DNA of 35,708 nucleotides from Armatimonadota bacterium (lineage in GTDB: Bacteria > Sysuimicrobiota > Sysuimicrobiia > Sysuimicrobiales > Kaftiobacteriaceae). The translations under genes and the position numbers were made by a program. Below, piece after piece: positions 7,452 through 16,236 of this stretch. The notes below the pieces were generated by a model, which ran no database searches, was not told the origin of the DNA, and saw only the letters and a list, made by a program, of their open reading frames with translations. The stretch spans positions 1 to 35,708 of the forward strand of contig JACPRY010000011.1 in the NCBI GenBank assembly GCA_016193565.1, in the 5' to 3' direction. How positions within the stretch are numbered: the stretch's first letter is position 1; the number at the start of each line of letters is the position of its first letter.

Positions 7452-8777
7452 GTGGCAGAGTCCAAGCCAGCGAAAGCGCCGGTATGGCTAAAGCGGCTCG
7501 GGAATCGGATCCGGCAAGTCCGCAGGATCCGGGGCCTCACCCAGACCGACCTCGCACAGCCAAGTCTCACGAAGAGTTTCATCAGCCTGCTCGAATCGGG
7601 TCGTACCTACCCCTCGGTCGGTACGCTCGTCGCGCTCGCAAACCGGCTCCAGACCTCCCTGGCCCTGCTGCTGCTCGAAGACGCCGATCTCCCGCGGGAA
7701 ACGACGTTGACGCTATTGAACCTCTCGCGCGCGCTGGCGGCTCGCGGTCTAGACTCAGTTGATGATCTCCTCGCCGCGGCCGAGGCGCTCTCAACCCAGG
7801 CCGATGATCTGCGAGCCGAAATCATCCTGACGCGCGGCGACATCGCGGCTGCTCAGGGCCGGGTGACCGAGGCGGGGAAGATCCTCACCGACGCGCTGTC
7901 TTGGGTGCGCAAGCGCCGGCTGCGGGCCTACGAACCCCGCATCATCGCACGCCTCGCCTTGTACGCGCAGCAACAGAGTGACACCGGCGCCGCGCGCACG
8001 CATCTCGAAGAGGCTCTGAACCAGTTCAGGGCGACGCGAACGCTGCGTTCCGTCGACGGCTGTGACGCCATGCTTGCCTATGCGGGAATGTTGACCGAAG
8101 GAGGCCGGCCCGCGCGCGCGCTGCGCGTCCTGCTGGATGTCGCGCGAGTCGCGGAGCGGCAGGATCTGCCCCTGATCCGAGGCCGGGCCTACATCGGCAT
8201 GGCGCGCGCACACCTGCAGGCCGGTCGTGCGCACGACGCGTCCGATGCGCTCCGCCACGCGAAGGACGCCCTGGAAGACGTGACCGATTCTGTCGAGCTG
8301 GTCCGCACCCTGCGAGCGCTCGCTGATCTGCAGGCTGCCGCAGGCCACCACCAGGATGCGCACGCCTCCTTGCAGCAGGCGGTGCGCCTCGTTGAGAAAT
8401 CTCCCGACGCACGGCTGCGCGCCGCGGTGCTGGCGGATCTGGCCAGGGTCCTGGCCCAGCTGAACAAGTACGACGACGCGTTGAGGGCCGCGAGGGCTGG
8501 GCTCGATCTGCTTCGCGCGCACCCTGATGCCCATCAGCGCGGGCGGTTGCTCGTGACGATGGCCCGCGTGACCCGAGCACTGAAACGGCCCAAACAGGCG
8601 GTAGAGCATTTCCGGGACGCCATCGCGATTTTCAAAAAGGGCAGACACCAGGCCGATCTCGCAGAGACGGCGCGGGAATTGGGAATGTATCTCAAGGAGC
8701 GCGGGGAGAACGCCGACGCGGCGGAGTATCTAGCGATGGCGATCACGGCGGAGCGCTCTGGGCCTCGAAGAGGATAG
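7452..8777 (+). CDS. XRE-family DNA-binding protein with TPR domain
   Basis: 441 residues. Residues 13-70 form a Cro/CI-type helix-turn-helix (LGNRIRQVRRIRGLTQTDLAQPSLTKSFISLLESGRTYPSVGTLVALANRL). The rest is alpha-helical with about eight TPR-like pairs (for example GDIAAAQGRVTEAGKILTDALSWV, AYIGMARAHLQAGRAHDASDALRHA, ALRAARAGLDLL). This is the arrangement of Rgg/PlcR/NprR-like or antibiotic-cluster regulators, in which the TPR part binds a peptide or protein. No peptide gene was seen beside it. The GTG at 7452 is used; the ATG at 7484 is out of frame and no strong Shine-Dalgarno is present. It follows the partner-switch operon on the same strand after 73 bp, with an operator-like repeat in between, so it may be a separate unit. 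Confidence 0.88.
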   Translation: MAESKPAKAPVWLKRLGNRIRQVRRIRGLTQTDLAQPSLTKSFISLLESGRTYPSVGTLVALANRLQTSLALLLLEDADLPRETTLTLLNLSRALAARGLDSVDDLLAAAEALSTQADDLRAEIILTRGDIAAAQGRVTEAGKILTDALSWVRKRRLRAYEPRIIARLALYAQQQSDTGAARTHLEEALNQFRATRTLRSVDGCDAMLAYAGMLTEGGRPARALRVLLDVARVAERQDLPLIRGRAYIGMARAHLQAGRAHDASDALRHAKDALEDVTDSVELVRTLRALADLQAAAGHHQDAHASLQQAVRLVEKSPDARLRAAVLADLARVLAQLNKYDDALRAARAGLDLLRAHPDAHQRGRLLVTMARVTRALKRPKQAVEHFRDAIAIFKKGRHQADLAETARELGMYLKERGENADAAEYLAMAITAERSGPRRG

Positions 8778-8987: not shown

Positions 8988-9097
8988 TAAACCAAAACGT
9001 TCGGACGATTAGGTATCCACGATCACCGCCCCCATGTAACACCCGCATCACGGAGCCCCAGGAATGACGCGGCCGGCGTCAAAATGTGCCTCACCGA

Positions 9098-12000
9098 ATG
9101 ACAACAGCGACCACCTGCTGGAACTGCGGATTCGAGAACCAGTCCGGGGCGAAGTTTTGCGCCAACTGCGGCAAATCCCAGCGGCAGCCGTGCCCGGAAT
9201 GCGGCGCCGACGTGCCGGAGGGATCGCGGTTTTGCCCGAACTGCGGGATTCCACTGGCCTCCCGGCCGCAGCCCGCCGCCGGATCCTCCGGACCCGTGCT
9301 CACCGCCGAGACCCGGCGCGTGATCACCGTGCTGTTCGCCGATCTCGTCGGATCGACTGGTCTCACGGAACGCCTCGACCCCGAAGAAGCTCGTGATGTC
9401 ATCAAGAAATTCTACGACGTTGCCCAGCACATCGTTGAACGCTGGTACGAGGGCTCGATCGCCAACTACCTCGGCGACGGGGTGCTGGCCGTCTTCGGTC
9501 TGCCTGCCGCCCACGAAAACGACCCAGAGCGCGCGGTCCGGGCAGGGCTCGCGATCCGCGACGCCATGCCGAACCTCAACGACCACCTCCGCACCACGCA
9601 CGGGATCCAGTTGTCGGTCCGCGTCGGGATCAATACGGGTGAAGTCGTCGCGGCATCGGGATCCACGTTCGACCGTGACTTCCTCATCTCAGACGCGGTC
9701 ACAACGGCGGCCCGCCTGCAGCAAGCCGTGCCCGCAGGAACGGTCGTCATCGGAGAGCGCACCTACCGCCTGACCAAAGACAGCATCGAGTACCGCGAAC
9801 TCCCGCCGCTCGAGGTGAAAGGCAAAGATGCGCCACTGCCCGTGTGGGCGGGCGTCGCCCCGCTCCCCGAAACTGTCGACGTGCGCCGGATCACGGCCCC
9901 GCTCGTCGGCCGCCATGCCGAGCTCGGGCTCCTGCGCCATCTTTACGAACGCAGCCGCGACGCGAACCTTGTGCAACTCGTCACCATCCTCGGACAGACA
10001 GGCGTCGGGAAGAGCCGACTCCTGCGAGAATTCCTGGCTGTCGTTCGGGAGACCGACAACCCGCCGATGGTGCTTCGGGGCCGCAGCATCGCGTTCGGCA
10101 GCCAGATCGGCTACCACGCGCTGCTCGACATTCTGCGGGGACAGGCCGGATTACTCGATACCGATTCGCCCGACCTCGTGCGGAGCAAGATCCGCGACTG
10201 GCTGCATGAGTTGCTGCCCGGCAGAGATGATCTTGTGGATGGAATGCTTCTCACCTTTGGAACCGGCGAAATTGCGGACGATCCGAGTCTCGTCCGCCAG
10301 CGCCTGTTTAGTAGCTGGAAGGACCTCGTGGTCGGGCTCGCGGATGCGCGCCCCGTCGTCCTGGCGCTCGAGGACCTTCACTGGGCGGACGACGGAGTTC
10401 TGGATCTCATCCAGTTGTTCGCAGAGGCGTCGGAAGGCAGCTCGCTGTTCATCATCTGCCTGGCGCGGCCAGAACTTCTCGAACGCCGTCCCACCTGGCC
10501 GGGGGCGCGGCGCGACAGTACGAACATCGAACTCCCGCCGCTCCGCCAGCACGAGGCCGAGCAGCTGGCCGCAGCGTTGAGCAGCGAGGCCCTCACGTCG
10601 GAGGTTCGCCAGACCGTGGCGCTGCGCGCCGGCGGGAACCCCCTGTTTGTCGAGGAGCTCGTGCGCATGCTCCTCGAAGGCAGCGCACCTGGTGCCGCGA
10701 TCCCCGAGACCGTGCAGGCGGTTATCACAGCCAGACTCGACCGGCTTCCAGCCAATGAGCGCAGGACGCTGCAGGCGGCCGCCGTGATCGGCCGCGCCTT
10801 CTGGCCGTCGGCGGTCGCACCCATCGCGGGATTACCGGTCGAAGAGGTGCCGAAGACGGTTGAAGCGCTCATCAGCAAGGAGCTGGTGATCTCCCGACCC
10901 CGCTCTGCTGTGTCTGGAGAGCGGGAGTTCGCGTTTCGCCACATCCTTACCCGCGATATCGCGTACGCGATGCTGCCGAAGGCGCAACGGCAGCGGGCGC
11001 ACGCGGAAGCGGCACGGTGGCTCGAAGCCCGGGCCGGTGAGCGATCAGAAGAAGTTGTCGAGATTCTCGCCGAGCACCTGCATCTGGCCGGCGACGCTGC
11101 TCGCGCCGCGATCTACTTCCACCGTGCGGCAAACAAGGCCAGGCGGCTGTATGCCAACGCAGACGCGATCAGTCTGTTCGAACGGGCACTGGGGGCTGCT
11201 GAAGCGGCGGGACGCCCCGCCCAGCAGCTGGCGGAGATCTCTCGCGATCGCGGGGATGTGCACCAGCTGCTCGGTCACTACGATTTGGCGATGACCGACT
11301 TCCAGCGCGGGCTGGTGGCGGCGCGGCAGGCAGGTGATCTCCGGCAGGAAGCCGGACTTGAGAATCGCATCGGCCTCATCTTCCACCGGCAGTTGGAGCT
11401 GGATGAAGCCGAGCGGCACTTCACCAGCGCCATCGCCCTGGCGCGGGAGGCCGGCGAGCGCCTGACGCTGGGCCGGTCGCTGGTCGATCTCGCCAACATC
11501 GCCTGGGATCGCGGACGGATGGATCCAACGCATCCCGCACTCGTGGAGGGGCTGACGCTTCTGCGCGAGGACAACGATCTGTCGGGCCTGGCGCGCGCGC
11601 TGAACCTCATGTGCATGGGACAGACCGGTGCGGGGAACGGCGAGCTCGCCATCGCTGCGGCCCAACAGGCGCTGGAGGCCGCCCGGGCGGCCGGGGACAA
11701 GTCAAGAACGGCGACCAGCCTGAGCTATCTCTCTGTCGTCCACGGCTTCTTGGGACGGTACGCCGAAGCGCTCCCCTACGCCGAGGACGCGATCCGCCTC
11801 GCCGAAGAGATCGGCGACCGCCGGCGCATCACGTACACGCATTTCTTCATCGGCCGGGTTCTGGTCAACTGGGGACACTGGGGGGATGCCGTACAGCATC
11901 TGGAGCTCGGCCGGAGGATGGGAATGGCCCGCATCACGGAGCCATGGTCGTACTACTTCCTGGGCCTCGCTTACCACATGCTCGGGGACTCGGAGCGCGC

Positions 12001-12583
12001 GAAGACGATCTGGACCGAGGGGTCGCATCTGGAAGCACGCTCGCCGGCCTGGAAGGCGATGGCCCTGCTCTCGGGGATCGGAGCAGCACGGCTGAGTCAG
12101 GAGACCGCGACGCTGGATCGGTTGCTCGGCGAGATGCTGGCGATGCCCTTCGGCATCTTCATCCCATCCGATGCGGAAACGCTGCTCCCGGCCGGCGAGG
12201 CGCTGCTGGACCTGGGGCGCGCGCACGACGCCCAGGGCTTCCTGGATGCCCGCCGGGCCGGTGTCCAGAAACTTGACGCTCCGCCGCATCTTGCTTCGAT
12301 GGCGATCCTCGATGCTCAGCTGGCGGTCCGGCGCGGAGACAAGGCAAAGGCTCTCCAGAATCTCGACCGCGCGGTGCAGTGGAGCCTTCGCAGTGAAGAT
12401 GCGATCCGCGAGTGGCGGGCGCGCGAACTGCGCCTGACGCTGAGCAACCGCAACGACGACCGTGACGCACTCCGTACGCTGATTCAGCGCATCGCATCGG
12501 GCCTGACCGATGAGCACCGCCGCATCTTCATGGTCAGTCCGCGGACGGTGGCAGCACTCGGCGAAGAACAACACTCAAATTGA
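9098..12583 (+). CDS. Zinc-ribbon / class III nucleotidyl cyclase-like / AAA ATPase / TPR protein
   Basis: 1161 residues from ATG 9098 (a GTG four codons upstream is the track start; neither has a good ribosome site). Order: two zinc ribbons (CWNCG..CANCG, CPECG..CPNCG, residues 7-50); a class III cyclase domain (about 73-260) with metal Asp82 in FADLVGST and Asp127 in YLGDGVLAVFG; an AAA/STAND-like ATPase with P-loop GQTGVGKS and Walker B VVLALEDLHWADD; then helical TPR repeats to the end. This is the architecture of large cyclase-ATPase regulators common in soil and GC-rich bacteria. The Lys that selects adenine (usual EKF-x-GD) is Asn here (ANYLGD), and the usual VN-x-AAR Asn is Thr (VTTAARL), so cyclase activity may be lost or altered. 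A Crp-type protein with an intact ligand pocket is encoded 1.7 kb away. It is cytoplasmic and stands alone. Confidence 0.88.
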   Translation: MTTATTCWNCGFENQSGAKFCANCGKSQRQPCPECGADVPEGSRFCPNCGIPLASRPQPAAGSSGPVLTAETRRVITVLFADLVGSTGLTERLDPEEARDVIKKFYDVAQHIVERWYEGSIANYLGDGVLAVFGLPAAHENDPERAVRAGLAIRDAMPNLNDHLRTTHGIQLSVRVGINTGEVVAASGSTFDRDFLISDAVTTAARLQQAVPAGTVVIGERTYRLTKDSIEYRELPPLEVKGKDAPLPVWAGVAPLPETVDVRRITAPLVGRHAELGLLRHLYERSRDANLVQLVTILGQTGVGKSRLLREFLAVVRETDNPPMVLRGRSIAFGSQIGYHALLDILRGQAGLLDTDSPDLVRSKIRDWLHELLPGRDDLVDGMLLTFGTGEIADDPSLVRQRLFSSWKDLVVGLADARPVVLALEDLHWADDGVLDLIQLFAEASEGSSLFIICLARPELLERRPTWPGARRDSTNIELPPLRQHEAEQLAAALSSEALTSEVRQTVALRAGGNPLFVEELVRMLLEGSAPGAAIPETVQAVITARLDRLPANERRTLQAAAVIGRAFWPSAVAPIAGLPVEEVPKTVEALISKELVISRPRSAVSGEREFAFRHILTRDIAYAMLPKAQRQRAHAEAARWLEARAGERSEEVVEILAEHLHLAGDAARAAIYFHRAANKARRLYANADAISLFERALGAAEAAGRPAQQLAEISRDRGDVHQLLGHYDLAMTDFQRGLVAARQAGDLRQEAGLENRIGLIFHRQLELDEAERHFTSAIALAREAGERLTLGRSLVDLANIAWDRGRMDPTHPALVEGLTLLREDNDLSGLARALNLMCMGQTGAGNGELAIAAAQQALEAARAAGDKSRTATSLSYLSVVHGFLGRYAEALPYAEDAIRLAEEIGDRRRITYTHFFIGRVLVNWGHWGDAVQHLELGRRMGMARITEPWSYYFLGLAYHMLGDSERAKTIWTEGSHLEARSPAWKAMALLSGIGAARLSQETATLDRLLGEMLAMPFGIFIPSDAETLLPAGEALLDLGRAHDAQGFLDARRAGVQKLDAPPHLASMAILDAQLAVRRGDKAKALQNLDRAVQWSLRSEDAIREWRARELRLTLSNRNDDRDALRTLIQRIASGLTDEHRRIFMVSPRTVAALGEEQHSN

Positions 12584-12801: not shown

Positions 12802-14004
12802 TCAAGACGCAGCACCTTGCCCGCTCGCTGTAGTCTGCACGGGCCCAACCGGCAGTTCATCTTCCTTCTCTTCGAACAATGCCAAATATGGAGCGTAACG
12901 GAAACGACGATTCCGGCGACCTCCTGTCGTCTCTTCGAGAAGGCCGATGGCTTCGAGCTTGTCAACAAGGTTGTTGGCGGTTACAAAGGCTACATCGAGA
13001 TGGCGAGTAACAAAATTCACAGTAACAATCGGACTCTGGAACAATAAGTCGAGAAGGCGCAGCCCATTCGCCCCGACACGATTTTGCTGGAGCGATGCTC
13101 GATGTCGCTCACGGAGATTCACAATCGCACGCGCGGTCCTGGTTGCCTCCTCTGCTGTTTCTGCCACCCCTCCCAGGAAGAAGGTCAACCACCCTTCCCA
13201 GTCTCCTGCATCGCGCACCCTCATTAGGCGCGCATAATATTCATCACGATGGCGTTTCAAATAGTGGCTTAAGTAGAGCAACGGACGACTGAGGACAGCT
13301 TTTCGAACGAGCAGGAATGTGATGAGAAGCCGGCCGATGCGCCCGTTCCCATCCAGAAATGGATGGATTGTCTCGAACTGGGCATGCGCCAGACCGCAAA
13401 GAATTAACGCGGGTAGATCGCTCTCGGCATTGAGAAACTGCTCGAGGTTGTTGAGTGCCTCATTCATCTCGTTCGGCGGCGGAGGGACAAACGTAGCCTG
13501 AGCGATCGGTGTATTCGGCGGGCCAATCCAGTTTTGGTTCTTCCTAAACTCCCCCGGCTGACGAGTACCTCCCCGGACTCCACGGAGAAGTTCGGCGTGG
13601 ATTTCACGGATAAGCCGAAGTGAAAGCGGAAGGGTTTCCAAGCGCCCCAGTCCGTAGTTCATTGCCCGGACGTATCTGACGACTTCCTGCACGTCGTACG
13701 GAACACGGGACGCCTTGGGATCAGCCTCAAAGGTCAACAGGTCTTCAAGAGTGCTCTGGGTACCCTCAATTTGGGAGCTAAGGACTGCCTCACGCCGAAC
13801 GTAGAGTGCGACAAAAAAGTCAGGGTTCGGTAGAATCAGGCTGACGCCGTCCAGCCTACCCAACGCTTGGTCCGCACGAGAGAGGATCCCACTGAGGGGT
13901 TCAATTTCAACCGGCGGAAGGGGCGGCAATGGCTCAGGAACAAACGCCTGATAGCCCTGAGGCTGCAACATATAGCGTCCAGCGCGCGAAGTTCGTACAG
14001 CCAT
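12802..14004 (-). CDS. Fic-domain protein (probable AMP transferase), class II with built-in inhibitor
   Basis: 400 residues. An N-terminal helical part carries SSQIEG (residues 76-81), which fits the (S/T)xxxE(G/N) inhibitory helix; its Glu80 would block the ATP gamma-phosphate. The Fic core motif HPFLDGNGRIGR starts at His214 and is intact. The C-terminal 100 residues look like a winged helix (LRLLDLLFQSPIVTVNFVTRHLDVAFVTANNLVDKLEAIGLLEE). Fic enzymes usually transfer AMP to protein hydroxyls; this inhibitor-helix-before-Fic layout is that of stand-alone class II proteins, so no separate antitoxin gene is needed and none is seen. The coding strand and the upstream 110 bp are richer in A+T than the neighbours, and the gene lies just after tRNA-Ser(GGA), which hints at transfer, but no flanking repeat was found. 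Confidence 0.92.
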   Translation of the reverse strand: MAVRTSRAGRYMLQPQGYQAFVPEPLPPLPPVEIEPLSGILSRADQALGRLDGVSLILPNPDFFVALYVRREAVLSSQIEGTQSTLEDLLTFEADPKASRVPYDVQEVVRYVRAMNYGLGRLETLPLSLRLIREIHAELLRGVRGGTRQPGEFRKNQNWIGPPNTPIAQATFVPPPPNEMNEALNNLEQFLNAESDLPALILCGLAHAQFETIHPFLDGNGRIGRLLITFLLVRKAVLSRPLLYLSHYLKRHRDEYYARLMRVRDAGDWEGWLTFFLGGVAETAEEATRTARAIVNLRERHRASLQQNRVGANGLRLLDLLFQSPIVTVNFVTRHLDVAFVTANNLVDKLEAIGLLEETTGGRRNRRFRYAPYLALFEEKEDELPVGPVQTTASGQGAAS

Positions 14005-14267: not shown

Positions 14268-14954
14268 ATGTCCGCGGACGTGCGGGAACTGCTGAGGAAA
14301 ATCTCAATCTTTGGGGACCTGGACGATCGCGCGCTCACGGGGCTGGCCGAGCACCTGCGCCGGCGCACCTTCCGCAAGAACACGATGATCTTCCATAAAG
14401 AGCAGGCCGGCGACGCGCTGTACCTTGTCGAATCCGGCCACGTGCGGATCTTCCTGCCGACCGAGAGCGGCGAAGAGCTCACGGTCGACGTCGCGGGACC
14501 CGGCGATGTCTTCGGCGAGCTCGCACTCCTCGACGGGCGGCCCCGGTCAGCGAGCGCGGAGACAGTCGAGGATGCCTCGATTTATGTGCTTAGCCGCGAG
14601 GACTTCCAGCGATTCCTAGTGGCGACATCGCAGTTCGCCGCCTCGCTTATCGCGCTGCTCAGCACCCGCATCCGCCAGATCACGGAATACGCGGAAAGTC
14701 TCGCCTTCCTCGATATCCACGGCCGTGTCGCGCGCACGCTGCTGCAGATGGCAGAGCGGTACGGCATGCGGAGCAACGGCGGGATCGAAATCGACTTCGA
14801 CATGACCCAGGCGGAACTTGCCAGTATGGTCGGCGCCACTCGAGAACGAGTAAACCGTGCGCTGGCTTCCTTCCGCACCCAGGGACTCGTCGAACTCCGC
14901 GGCAAGAAGATTGTGCTGCTGGACGCGACTCGACTGAAGCAGCGTATCTACTAG
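14268..14954 (+). CDS. Crp/Fnr-family transcription regulator
   Basis: 228 residues from ATG 14268. The track ORF begins 51 codons earlier, but that extension (MHDTQTDVCKC...) has no family likeness, and from 14268 the length equals that of Crp. Residues 12-115 form the cyclic-nucleotide beta-roll, with GELALLDGRPRSAS matching the GE...RS ligand pocket of E. coli CRP. A dimer helix follows (about 120-145). The HTH near the end has ATRERVNRAL: R192, E193 and R197 line up with CRP R180, E181 and R185, which read GTGA. No Cys cluster for an iron-sulfur centre as in Fnr. Inference: a cAMP-type Crp; a GTGA-N6-TCAC site lies about 300 bp downstream, before lepB. It converges with a small ORF one base after its stop. 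Confidence 0.92.
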   Translation: MSADVRELLRKISIFGDLDDRALTGLAEHLRRRTFRKNTMIFHKEQAGDALYLVESGHVRIFLPTESGEELTVDVAGPGDVFGELALLDGRPRSASAETVEDASIYVLSREDFQRFLVATSQFAASLIALLSTRIRQITEYAESLAFLDIHGRVARTLLQMAERYGMRSNGGIEIDFDMTQAELASMVGATRERVNRALASFRTQGLVELRGKKIVLLDATRLKQRIY

Positions 14955-14955
14955 G

Positions 14956-15171
14956 CTACAGCACGAGCGCGACGGCCTTGTCTTTGCCCGTCCGATCCGG
15001 CTCGCGCCTTATGATCCTGACTCGCCCAGACGCCTGCCTATCATGACCCTGATTGCGCATGGCCCGCATCAACCGGTCTCCCTCGGCGTTGTAGTGAGGA
15101 ATCCGGCCGAATTCACGCGCAATTAACCCTATCAGTTCCGCTCCGCGCTCCCAGACCTGTCGCCACTGCAT
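14956..15171 (-). CDS. Small hypothetical protein
   Basis: 71 residues (MQWRQVWERGAELIGLIAREFG...) with ATG 15171 preceded by GGGAGGCGGC at a good distance, the strongest reason to call it. The sequence is charged and partly helical, with a very basic C-terminal third (ASGRVRIIRREPDRTGKDKAVALVL); I recognise no family. The track extends the frame to 15561, but that part lies opposite lepB and is a shadow. It is convergent with the Crp-type gene and divergent from lepB, sharing the Crp-like site with it. Confidence 0.5.
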   Translation of the reverse strand: MQWRQVWERGAELIGLIAREFGRIPHYNAEGDRLMRAMRNQGHDRQASGRVRIIRREPDRTGKDKAVALVL

Positions 15172-15252
15172 GATGCCGCCTCCCAGCCACGGTATGGTGA
15201 CACTGTACGGACTGGGGGTCTGAGTCGCGATTTCTGTGGTCACAGAGCGGGG

Positions 15253-15266
15253 GTGACGTACGTCAC
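15253..15266. promoter_or_regulatory. Crp-type binding site
   Basis: GTGACGTACGTCAC is a perfect 14-bp palindrome and matches GTGA-N6-TCAC. Its centre (15259.5) is about 60 bp upstream of the predicted lepB transcription start, the class I Crp activation position (-61.5). The Crp-type protein encoded 300 bp away keeps the three GTGA-reading residues. Confidence 0.6.
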
Positions 15267-15281
15267 ATGGGCCGGGTTGGG

Positions 15282-15311
15282 TTGACGTTGTTACAAAGGA
15301 ATGTCTATCAT
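15282..15311 (+). promoter_or_regulatory. lepB promoter
   Basis: TTGACG - 18 bp - TATCAT. The -10 lies downstream of the ATG at 15301 that opens the track ORF, so a transcript from here (start about 15318) would begin just before the second ATG at 15322. Confidence 0.65.
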
Positions 15312-15321
15312 AGACACGCCC

Positions 15322-15852
15322 ATGACCGACTGGCAGAAACTCGGCAGGAGCGCCTGGGAGTTCCTCAAGACCCTGATCGTCGCCTTTGTCCTGGCGCAGT
15401 TGATCATGGTATCGGTGGCGCAGGCGTTCCAGGTGGAGCAGTACTCCATGGAGCCCACGCTGCTGCCACGAGACCGCGTCCTGGTGGACAAGGTCACGTA
15501 TCGCTTCCGGCAGCCGCACCGCGGCGATATCGTGGTGTTGAAGTACCCGCTGAACGAGCAAAGGAACTACATCAAGCGGATCGTTGCGCTTCCGGGAGAC
15601 CGCGTGCAGGTGAAAGAAGGGAAGCTCTACATCAACGGCAGGCGGTCGCAGGAGTCGTACCTGAATGGCTCACCCCAGGGGAACTACGGGCCGGTCACAG
15701 TCCCGAGGGGTTCTGTGTTCGTGATGGGCGACAACAGGAACAACAGTGAGGACAGCCGCGCCTTCGGCGCGCTGAAGAAGGACCTGCTCGTTGGACAAGC
15801 CCTCTTGATCTACTGGCCGCCGATCCGGCTCCGCCTACTCGTCACTCGATAG
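15322..15852 (+). CDS. lepB: Signal peptidase I
   Basis: 176 residues from ATG 15322; the track uses ATG 15301 (183 aa), but the promoter overlaps that codon. One transmembrane helix (about residues 13-36), then the extracytoplasmic serine-lysine protease: SMEPTL with nucleophile Ser42, RGDIVVLKYP, general-base Lys85 in YIKRIVALPGD, and GDNRNNSEDSRAFG. All boxes B-E are present. It removes signal peptides from Sec- and Tat-exported proteins at the outer face of the cytoplasmic membrane; secreted proteins at 1 and 1222 would be substrates. The single N-terminal anchor and short length are the Gram-positive type. Monocistronic, followed 5 bp later by a palindromic repeat. Confidence 0.95.
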   Translation: MTDWQKLGRSAWEFLKTLIVAFVLAQLIMVSVAQAFQVEQYSMEPTLLPRDRVLVDKVTYRFRQPHRGDIVVLKYPLNEQRNYIKRIVALPGDRVQVKEGKLYINGRRSQESYLNGSPQGNYGPVTVPRGSVFVMGDNRNNSEDSRAFGALKKDLLVGQALLIYWPPIRLRLLVTR

Positions 15853-15966: not shown

Positions 15967-16236
15967 CCGTGCACCCATCGTCGGCGGTCATCCTCCAGGC
16001 GGTGTCGACGCCGCCGGCTCAGACCAGGTGTCCCTGCGGCACACGAGAGCACTGACGTACCGTTGCTTCCTTCCGGACCTGGCGGGTTTGGTCAGATCTC
16101 GTTGCGCAGGACCCGGCCGTCGTCGCCCACGCACGCCGGCCTGACCCTGAAAGATGGCGTCTCGGACGGGAATTCCGTCCCGCTATAGCGGATTGCGGGT
16201 ACAGGGAACCGCTAGCTCCCCACCTAGCACGACCCA
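15963..16236 (-). ncRNA. ffs: Large bacterial SRP RNA (Alu-domain type, scRNA-like)
   Basis: The minus strand has the invariant S-domain tetraloop/asymmetric-loop sequence AGGTCCGGAAGGAAGCA, flanked by CTGCGCAACGAGA pairing with TCTCGTGTGCCGCAG. About 150 nt upstream is the Alu-domain block GTGCTAGGTGGGGAGCTAGCGGTTCCCTGTACCCGCAATCCGCTATAGCGGG, close to the B. subtilis scRNA. The ends TGGGTCGTGC (5') and GCACGGCCCA (3') pair perfectly over 10 bp and close the 274-nt molecule. It is the RNA scaffold of the signal recognition particle with Ffh, which targets membrane and secreted proteins. The Alu domain is known from Firmicutes and some deep lineages and argues against a proteobacterial host. 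Confidence 0.93.

Follow-up and report, generated by a model that had tools for sequence, protein, structure and literature searches.

Comparison of a perfect GTGA-N6-TCAC palindrome with its counterparts in related genomes indicated that it is very probably the distal site of a tandem Crp promoter whose two sites, predicted at -64.5 and -41.5, serve the divergent small-protein gene (14956–15171). The palindrome lies in a 35,708-nucleotide stretch (the window), contig C137 of a draft genome of 1.74 Mb (G000). The pair of sites, the constant 23 bp from one to the other, the fixed -10 and the recurrence of this arrangement in the phylum were directly observed in the sequences; the second Crp-like site had previously gone unnoticed, and the two-site module is a variant of known Crp promoter types. 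In our best reading, a Crp-family protein would activate small-protein genes from tandem sites, with lepB chiefly a neighbor; its binding, its ligand and the direction of control are what we infer. An earlier note on this DNA had proposed lepB as a class I Crp target and the divergent small ORF as an alternative. A genuine conserved Crp-type operator beside a probable regulator was borne out and the small ORF was supported, with two sites instead of one, whereas the lepB proposal was not sustained. The relatives of lepB were found in MAGs filed under Armatimonadetes CSP1-3, since named Sysuimicrobiota, a phylum of worldwide distribution that is described as uncultivated; the paper on this phylum makes no mention of Crp, cAMP or regulators (PMC11604079). 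All relative sequences came from MAGs, and our conclusions rest on sequence comparison.

Table 1. Features of the interval between the regulator gene and lepB (window coordinates).
Feature	Position	Strand	Remarks
Crp/Fnr-family regulator gene, presumed reader of the element	14268..14954	+	228 aa; Pfam and PDB matches; orthologues near lepB in relatives
Small ORF, 71 aa (MQWRQVWERGAELIGLIAREFGRIPHYNAEGDRL...), best-supported target	14956..15171	-	SD GGAGGCGG before ATG; homologues and in-register conservation
-10 TACAGT of small ORF	15202..15207	-	44 bp past main site; predicted TSS ~15195
Whole composite element	15202..15267	-	Profile score 35.3 vs 7.0 for next best in window
Second Crp-type site TGTGACCACAGAAATC	15229..15244	-	Center 15236.5, at -41.5; 23 bp from main site in six aligned genomes
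Main Crp-type site TGTGACGTACGTCACC (read on -)	15252..15267	-	Center 15259.5; -64.5 from predicted small-ORF TSS
lepB promoter TTGACG-18-TATCAT	15282..15311	+	-35/-10 conserved in relatives, at varying distance to Crp site
lepB, type I signal peptidase	15322..15852	+	Pfam Peptidase_S26 8e-52; TIGR02227; neighbor, possible secondary target

The palindrome GTGACGTACGTCAC was exact at 15253–15266, as described earlier, and was the sole exact GTGA-N6-TCAC in the window. Because chance gives 0.48 matches per shuffled window, the palindrome taken alone lacked significance at this window length. The composite pattern matched once in the window and never in 100 shuffles, and the site is beyond chance because it is conserved in relatives and is part of this composite element. 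A chance palindrome, which the shuffle expectation and the mainly coding location of the other genomic copies would favor, is refuted by that conservation and retains practically no probability. Genome-wide, GTGA-N6-TCAC occurred 56 times versus 8 for the reversed control; operator enrichment was rejected as the explanation of this excess in favor of coding bias, because 45 of the 49 other copies retrieved fell within predicted ORFs. The exact TGTGA-N6-TCACA form was dropped as a regulon-defining motif because it was too rare (only 0–2 copies per genome).

Nine genomes (G001–G009) belong to the same family as the window genome (f1), and the lepB orthologues of f1 were 72–78% identical to the window lepB. 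The refuting condition named in the earlier note, no conservation of the palindrome upstream of lepB in relatives, did not hold: the site was exact in G007 (TGTGACGCGCGTCACA), G009 (TGTGACGCAGGTCACA) and G005 (TGTGACGCAGATCACA) and matched at 9 of 10 positions in G004, G006 and G003. There was no site upstream of lepB in G002, the G008 contig ended at the site region, and G001 was without an orthologue of the window lepB. The exact TGTGA-N6-TCACA was this lepB-adjacent site, as a single copy in G007 and G009 and as one of two copies in G005. The crp–lepB gene order was also conserved, with Crp orthologues (65–68% identical) adjoining lepB in G003, G004 and G009; the orthologue was partial in G005 and G006, at a contig end in G008, and absent from G001 and G002. 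At 8175–8701 of the reversed locus in G005 (C1, L155), the crp orthologue was interrupted by an internal deletion and a frame change, and the adjacent element was intact.

Gapless alignment on the palindrome, read toward the small ORF (G000, G003, G005, G006, G007 and G009), showed GTGAC at +8 in all six genomes, ATCG at +20 (GTCG in G003), and a -10 at +44 (TACAGT in G000, G006 and G003; TAGGCT in G005; TAACCT in G009) or, in G007, at +45 (TACTGT), that is, a gap from site to -10 of 44 bp in five genomes and 45 bp in the sixth. On this side, 18 columns were conserved in at least five of the six genomes and 8 in all six, which none of 5000 random shifts equaled. The second Crp-like site was exactly 23 bp closer to the small gene in every aligned genome, and its proximal half ran into the -35 region ATCG; in several f7 genomes, it was a GTGA-N6-TCAT palindrome. 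The centers of -64.5 and -41.5 were computed with the -10 placed at -12 to -7 and thus refer to a predicted TSS. With this placement, the small ORF would have the geometry of a class II promoter (a site centered at -41.5 from that predicted TSS, fixed in relatives) and of a tandem, class III promoter (two conserved predicted sites 23 bp apart upstream of one promoter). The divergent TACAGT that had been offered as an alternative, with the site at about -63, is real (15207–15202) and has the site at -64.5. G004, where the small ORF has been lost, retained the first site together with a degenerate second one. A second palindrome-44-TACAGT unit, which is a local duplication of the module, was present in the same crp–lepB interval of G009 (C209, L158, 1264–1328, minus strand) before another 65-aa ORF.

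On the lepB side, the gene product carried the Ser motif (QYSMEP) and Lys motif (IKRIVALPGD) of S26 signal peptidases. The predicted promoter was confirmed, and the palindrome was indeed about 60 bp before the predicted lepB start (center at about -58.5 from a TSS set 7 nt past the -10). However, the proposed class I control did not survive comparison among six genomes: the distance from site center to lepB promoter drifted (-58.5 in G000, -86.5 in G005, -52.5 in G009, -51.5 in G007, -161.5 in G006 and -72.5 in G004) with no common helical phase, and thus without the conserved, phased spacing of a class I promoter, and in-register conservation in the six genomes was not beyond chance (one column in at least five of six, none in all six). 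Activation of lepB by cAMP-Crp as a class I activator is therefore highly improbable, even though most family members have the site upstream of lepB, crp and lepB adjoin, and G004, without the small ORF, retains a site that matches at 9/10 positions and stands at -72.5 from lepB. In addition to the unphased distances, the lepB promoter is already near consensus, and in f5 the element stands elsewhere in the genome, not ahead of lepB; at the order-level lepB loci examined (f5 and f7), no site preceded lepB. The genome also has a second lepB (G000:C23:16100-16606), which weakens the notion that control of "the" housekeeping signal peptidase was at stake. The three papers found to mention cyclic AMP receptor protein alongside lepB and signal peptidase use each term once, and, judging from title and abstract, none concerns Crp control of lepB. 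lepB is probably mainly a bystander with its own strong, consensus-like promoter, although in some species the gene may respond to the site. The lepB start codon was 10 nt past the -10 in the window, and 8–12 nt past a -10 of the form TATxAT across the family (window 15282–15325, plus strand), in each case without an SD, so the lepB mRNA would be leaderless or near-leaderless, as a conserved trait of the family. Immediately past the lepB end, and encoded on the other strand, lay a bacterial large SRP RNA (192 bits; 15967–16232, minus strand), so that an RNA of the secretion pathway adjoins a signal peptidase gene in the window.

With one mismatch allowed, the composite pattern TGTG-N7-TCAC-N9-GTGA-N8-ATCG matched 24 times across 43 Sysuimicrobiota genomes, 18 of which had at least one copy, and its reversed control gave no match in the 43. 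A TAnnnT -10, which is independent of a search pattern containing no -10, occurred at one exact offset in 21 of the 24 elements and at no other offset more than once (binomial 2e-44, treating the elements as independent). The three deviants were G018, where the element lay within a coding stretch, and G007 and G016, where the -10 was shifted by one base. The downstream genes were mostly short and often encoded secreted proteins, as judged by eye from their N-termini. Besides the small ORFs of f1, there were a secreted protein of 79 aa in G040 and signal-peptide proteins of 36–106 aa in G015, G027, G030 and G037. Elements also preceded genes for a sigma factor (G024), a response regulator (G027) and a secreted protein of 436 aa (G021). 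The two-site Crp-type promoter design, as defined by these sequence patterns, recurs across the phylum, often beside a Crp-type regulator gene. These targets bear on the idea of dual control, in which the tandem sites would activate the small gene and the upstream dimer would also tune lepB, by activation or repression, linking export capacity to the cyclic nucleotide level. The site is common to the divergent promoters in G000, G007, G009 and G005, and the many short secreted proteins behind elements elsewhere would need signal peptidase; however, the lepB side has no conserved geometry, and 150 bp separate the site from the lepB -10 in G006. We regard dual control as unlikely, though a conceivable addition.

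The small ORF preferred here as the target was homologous to small ORFs that follow the element in G006, G003, G040 and G007 (pairwise z of 3 to 10 in the homologue set), with the segment RIPxYxAEAxRL common to the window ORF and those of G006, G003, G040 (f5) and G007:C24. The homologues in G040, away from lepB, and in G007:C24 stood behind the element at unlinked loci. In G012 (family f4), which has no close Crp, a homologue was present and the element was absent. A Pfam search of the small ORFs returned nothing significant. A first small-ORF profile (A1) failed to reach the window ORF; a second (A2, RIPxY motif) reached it, with the window ORF in its training set.

The regulator combines an N-terminal cNMP-binding domain (Pfam PF00027, 5e-26) and a C-terminal Crp-type HTH (HTH_Crp_2, PF13545, 3e-21), both above cut-off, and is thus a member of the Crp/Fnr superfamily. 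Its nearest solved structures were mycobacterial Crp (Rv3676) and corynebacterial GlxR (~1e-42), and its 109 bits against the NCBIfam PRK11753 equivalog (E. coli-type cAMP-CRP) fell below the cut-off of 266. As stated earlier, the GTGA-reading residues are retained: the recognition helix GATRERVNRAL, aligned to CSRETVGRIL, has R, E and R at these positions, and this RE...R pattern was kept in the f1 and f5 orthologues. The ligand pocket (GELALLDGRPRS), previously called intact, keeps Glu, Arg and Ser in its phosphate-binding cassette but is not fully of the E. coli type, as the adenine contacts T127 and S128 are replaced by Ile (V/I in most close homologues) and Thr. Retention of the phosphate-binding residues, together with seven cyclase-domain matches in the genome, one of them inside the window (9086–12583), makes a cyclic nucleotide the probable ligand; cAMP is likely but not certain, because I/V replaces Thr at 127. 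The gene at 9086–12583 (plus strand) encodes a zinc-ribbon/class III cyclase/AAA/TPR protein of doubtful cyclase activity, because inspection by eye shows N in place of the substrate Lys (IANYLGDG) and T in place of the transition-state Asn (DAVTTAAR). In G005 and G008, genes related to this one lie ahead of crp. Between the window's cyclase-like gene and crp lies a gene for a Fic/DOC-like protein, named by eye (12802–14004, minus strand), which tblastn did not find at the corresponding place in relatives.

A Crp homologue adjoined the element in four families: f1 (G000, G003, G005, G006 and G009), f5 (G040), f7 (G024, G027 and G030) and f3 (G019, with G025 weak). A 22-column profile was scanned over the flanks of crp homologues, and new elements that had not been used in building it scored 32.7 (G037), 31.2 (G033) and 27.5 (G035), all in f7, and 23.8 (G019) and 17.4 (G025, weak); control DNA totaling 1.6 million strand-bases gave a single hit above 15, which scored 18.1. 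A close Crp (E < 1e-40) was present in 12 of 18 genomes with the element versus 5 of 25 without it (Fisher P 0.004, uncorrected for kinship). In G024, G035 and G033 (L332, L335 and L336), divergent tandem elements lay between a short ORF and a sigma factor–crp gene pair. Because one element precedes this pair, in the order element, sigma factor gene, crp, and the second faces the opposite way, the arrangement suggests a likely autoregulated sigma/Crp operon.

The pairing was imperfect in G004 (crp kept, with only a single site beside lepB, at -72.5), G007 (element present, Crp orthologue not found in a genome 80% complete with a contig break) and G014 and G036 (element without close Crp, both genomes incomplete), partly through incompleteness. 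Against our explanation, crp is broken in G005 by the internal deletion and frame change although the element is perfect. This persistence, like that in G007, and the several cNMP-domain proteins per genome would fit reading of the sites by another Crp/Fnr paralogue (e.g., G000:C136), or their use as a repressor operator. We consider this improbable: the other HTH-bearing group occurs in G001 and G002, both without the element, elements are physically linked to the Crp orthologue in four families, and the -41.5/-64.5 geometry fits activation.

Under the preferred tandem activation of the small gene, the neighboring Crp-family protein with a cyclic nucleotide would bind both sites. The -41.5 dimer would sit as in class II promoters, overlapping a poor -35 (ATCGCG; ATCG, spacer 18), and would contact and recruit RNA polymerase, and the -64.5 dimer, on the better palindrome, would anchor or assist and stabilize the complex. 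More tentatively, and at somewhat below even confidence, we envisage a dedicated Crp circuit in Sysuimicrobiota, in which the regulator, whose gene in some families follows one tandem element together with that of a sigma factor, would turn on short, mostly uncharacterized, often secreted proteins through a rigid two-dimer module, such that the cyclic nucleotide level would control a small-protein program. The analysis provides Sysuimicrobiota with a defined regulatory element and a predicted regulator and targets. The element appears to mark a small-protein family (RIPxYxAEAxRL; short secreted peptides) as jointly regulated, and its fixed geometry offers a ready test of cooperation between Crp dimers at -64.5 and -41.5. 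It also illustrates that a lone palindrome before a housekeeping gene can mislead about the target.

In class II CRP-dependent promoters of E. coli, a site at -41.5 overlaps a poor -35. The window promoter shares this arrangement and adds a better site at -64.5, whereas the proximal half of its -41.5 site is degenerate. Paired Crp sites are also found at whiB1 of M. tuberculosis. The mycobacterial Crp (Rv3676, MSMEG_6189) and GlxR systems resemble the window in such pairs and are those of its closest solved relatives. At cydA of M. smegmatis, the two Crp sites are at -65.5 and -93.5 (PMC7739888), the former close in position to the -64.5 site. In contrast to these pairs, that of the window is always 23 bp apart, has its second site at -41.5 and forms a fixed module over the phylum; the targets are short proteins, and regulator residue 127 is V/I. 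Clr of Sinorhizobium, which binds cAMP and cGMP, has Thr at the E. coli S128 position, as does the window Crp (PMC10127613). Clr, however, has Thr at 127 too, where the window Crp has Ile, and the regulons differ. Class III promoters of E. coli carry two Crp dimers per promoter, as predicted for the window. In deoC, which is regulated with CytR, the Crp sites are near -40 and -90 (PMC5957442). Unlike those of deoC, which are ~50 bp apart with a second regulator, of which none was seen at the window promoter, the sites of the window are 23 bp apart.
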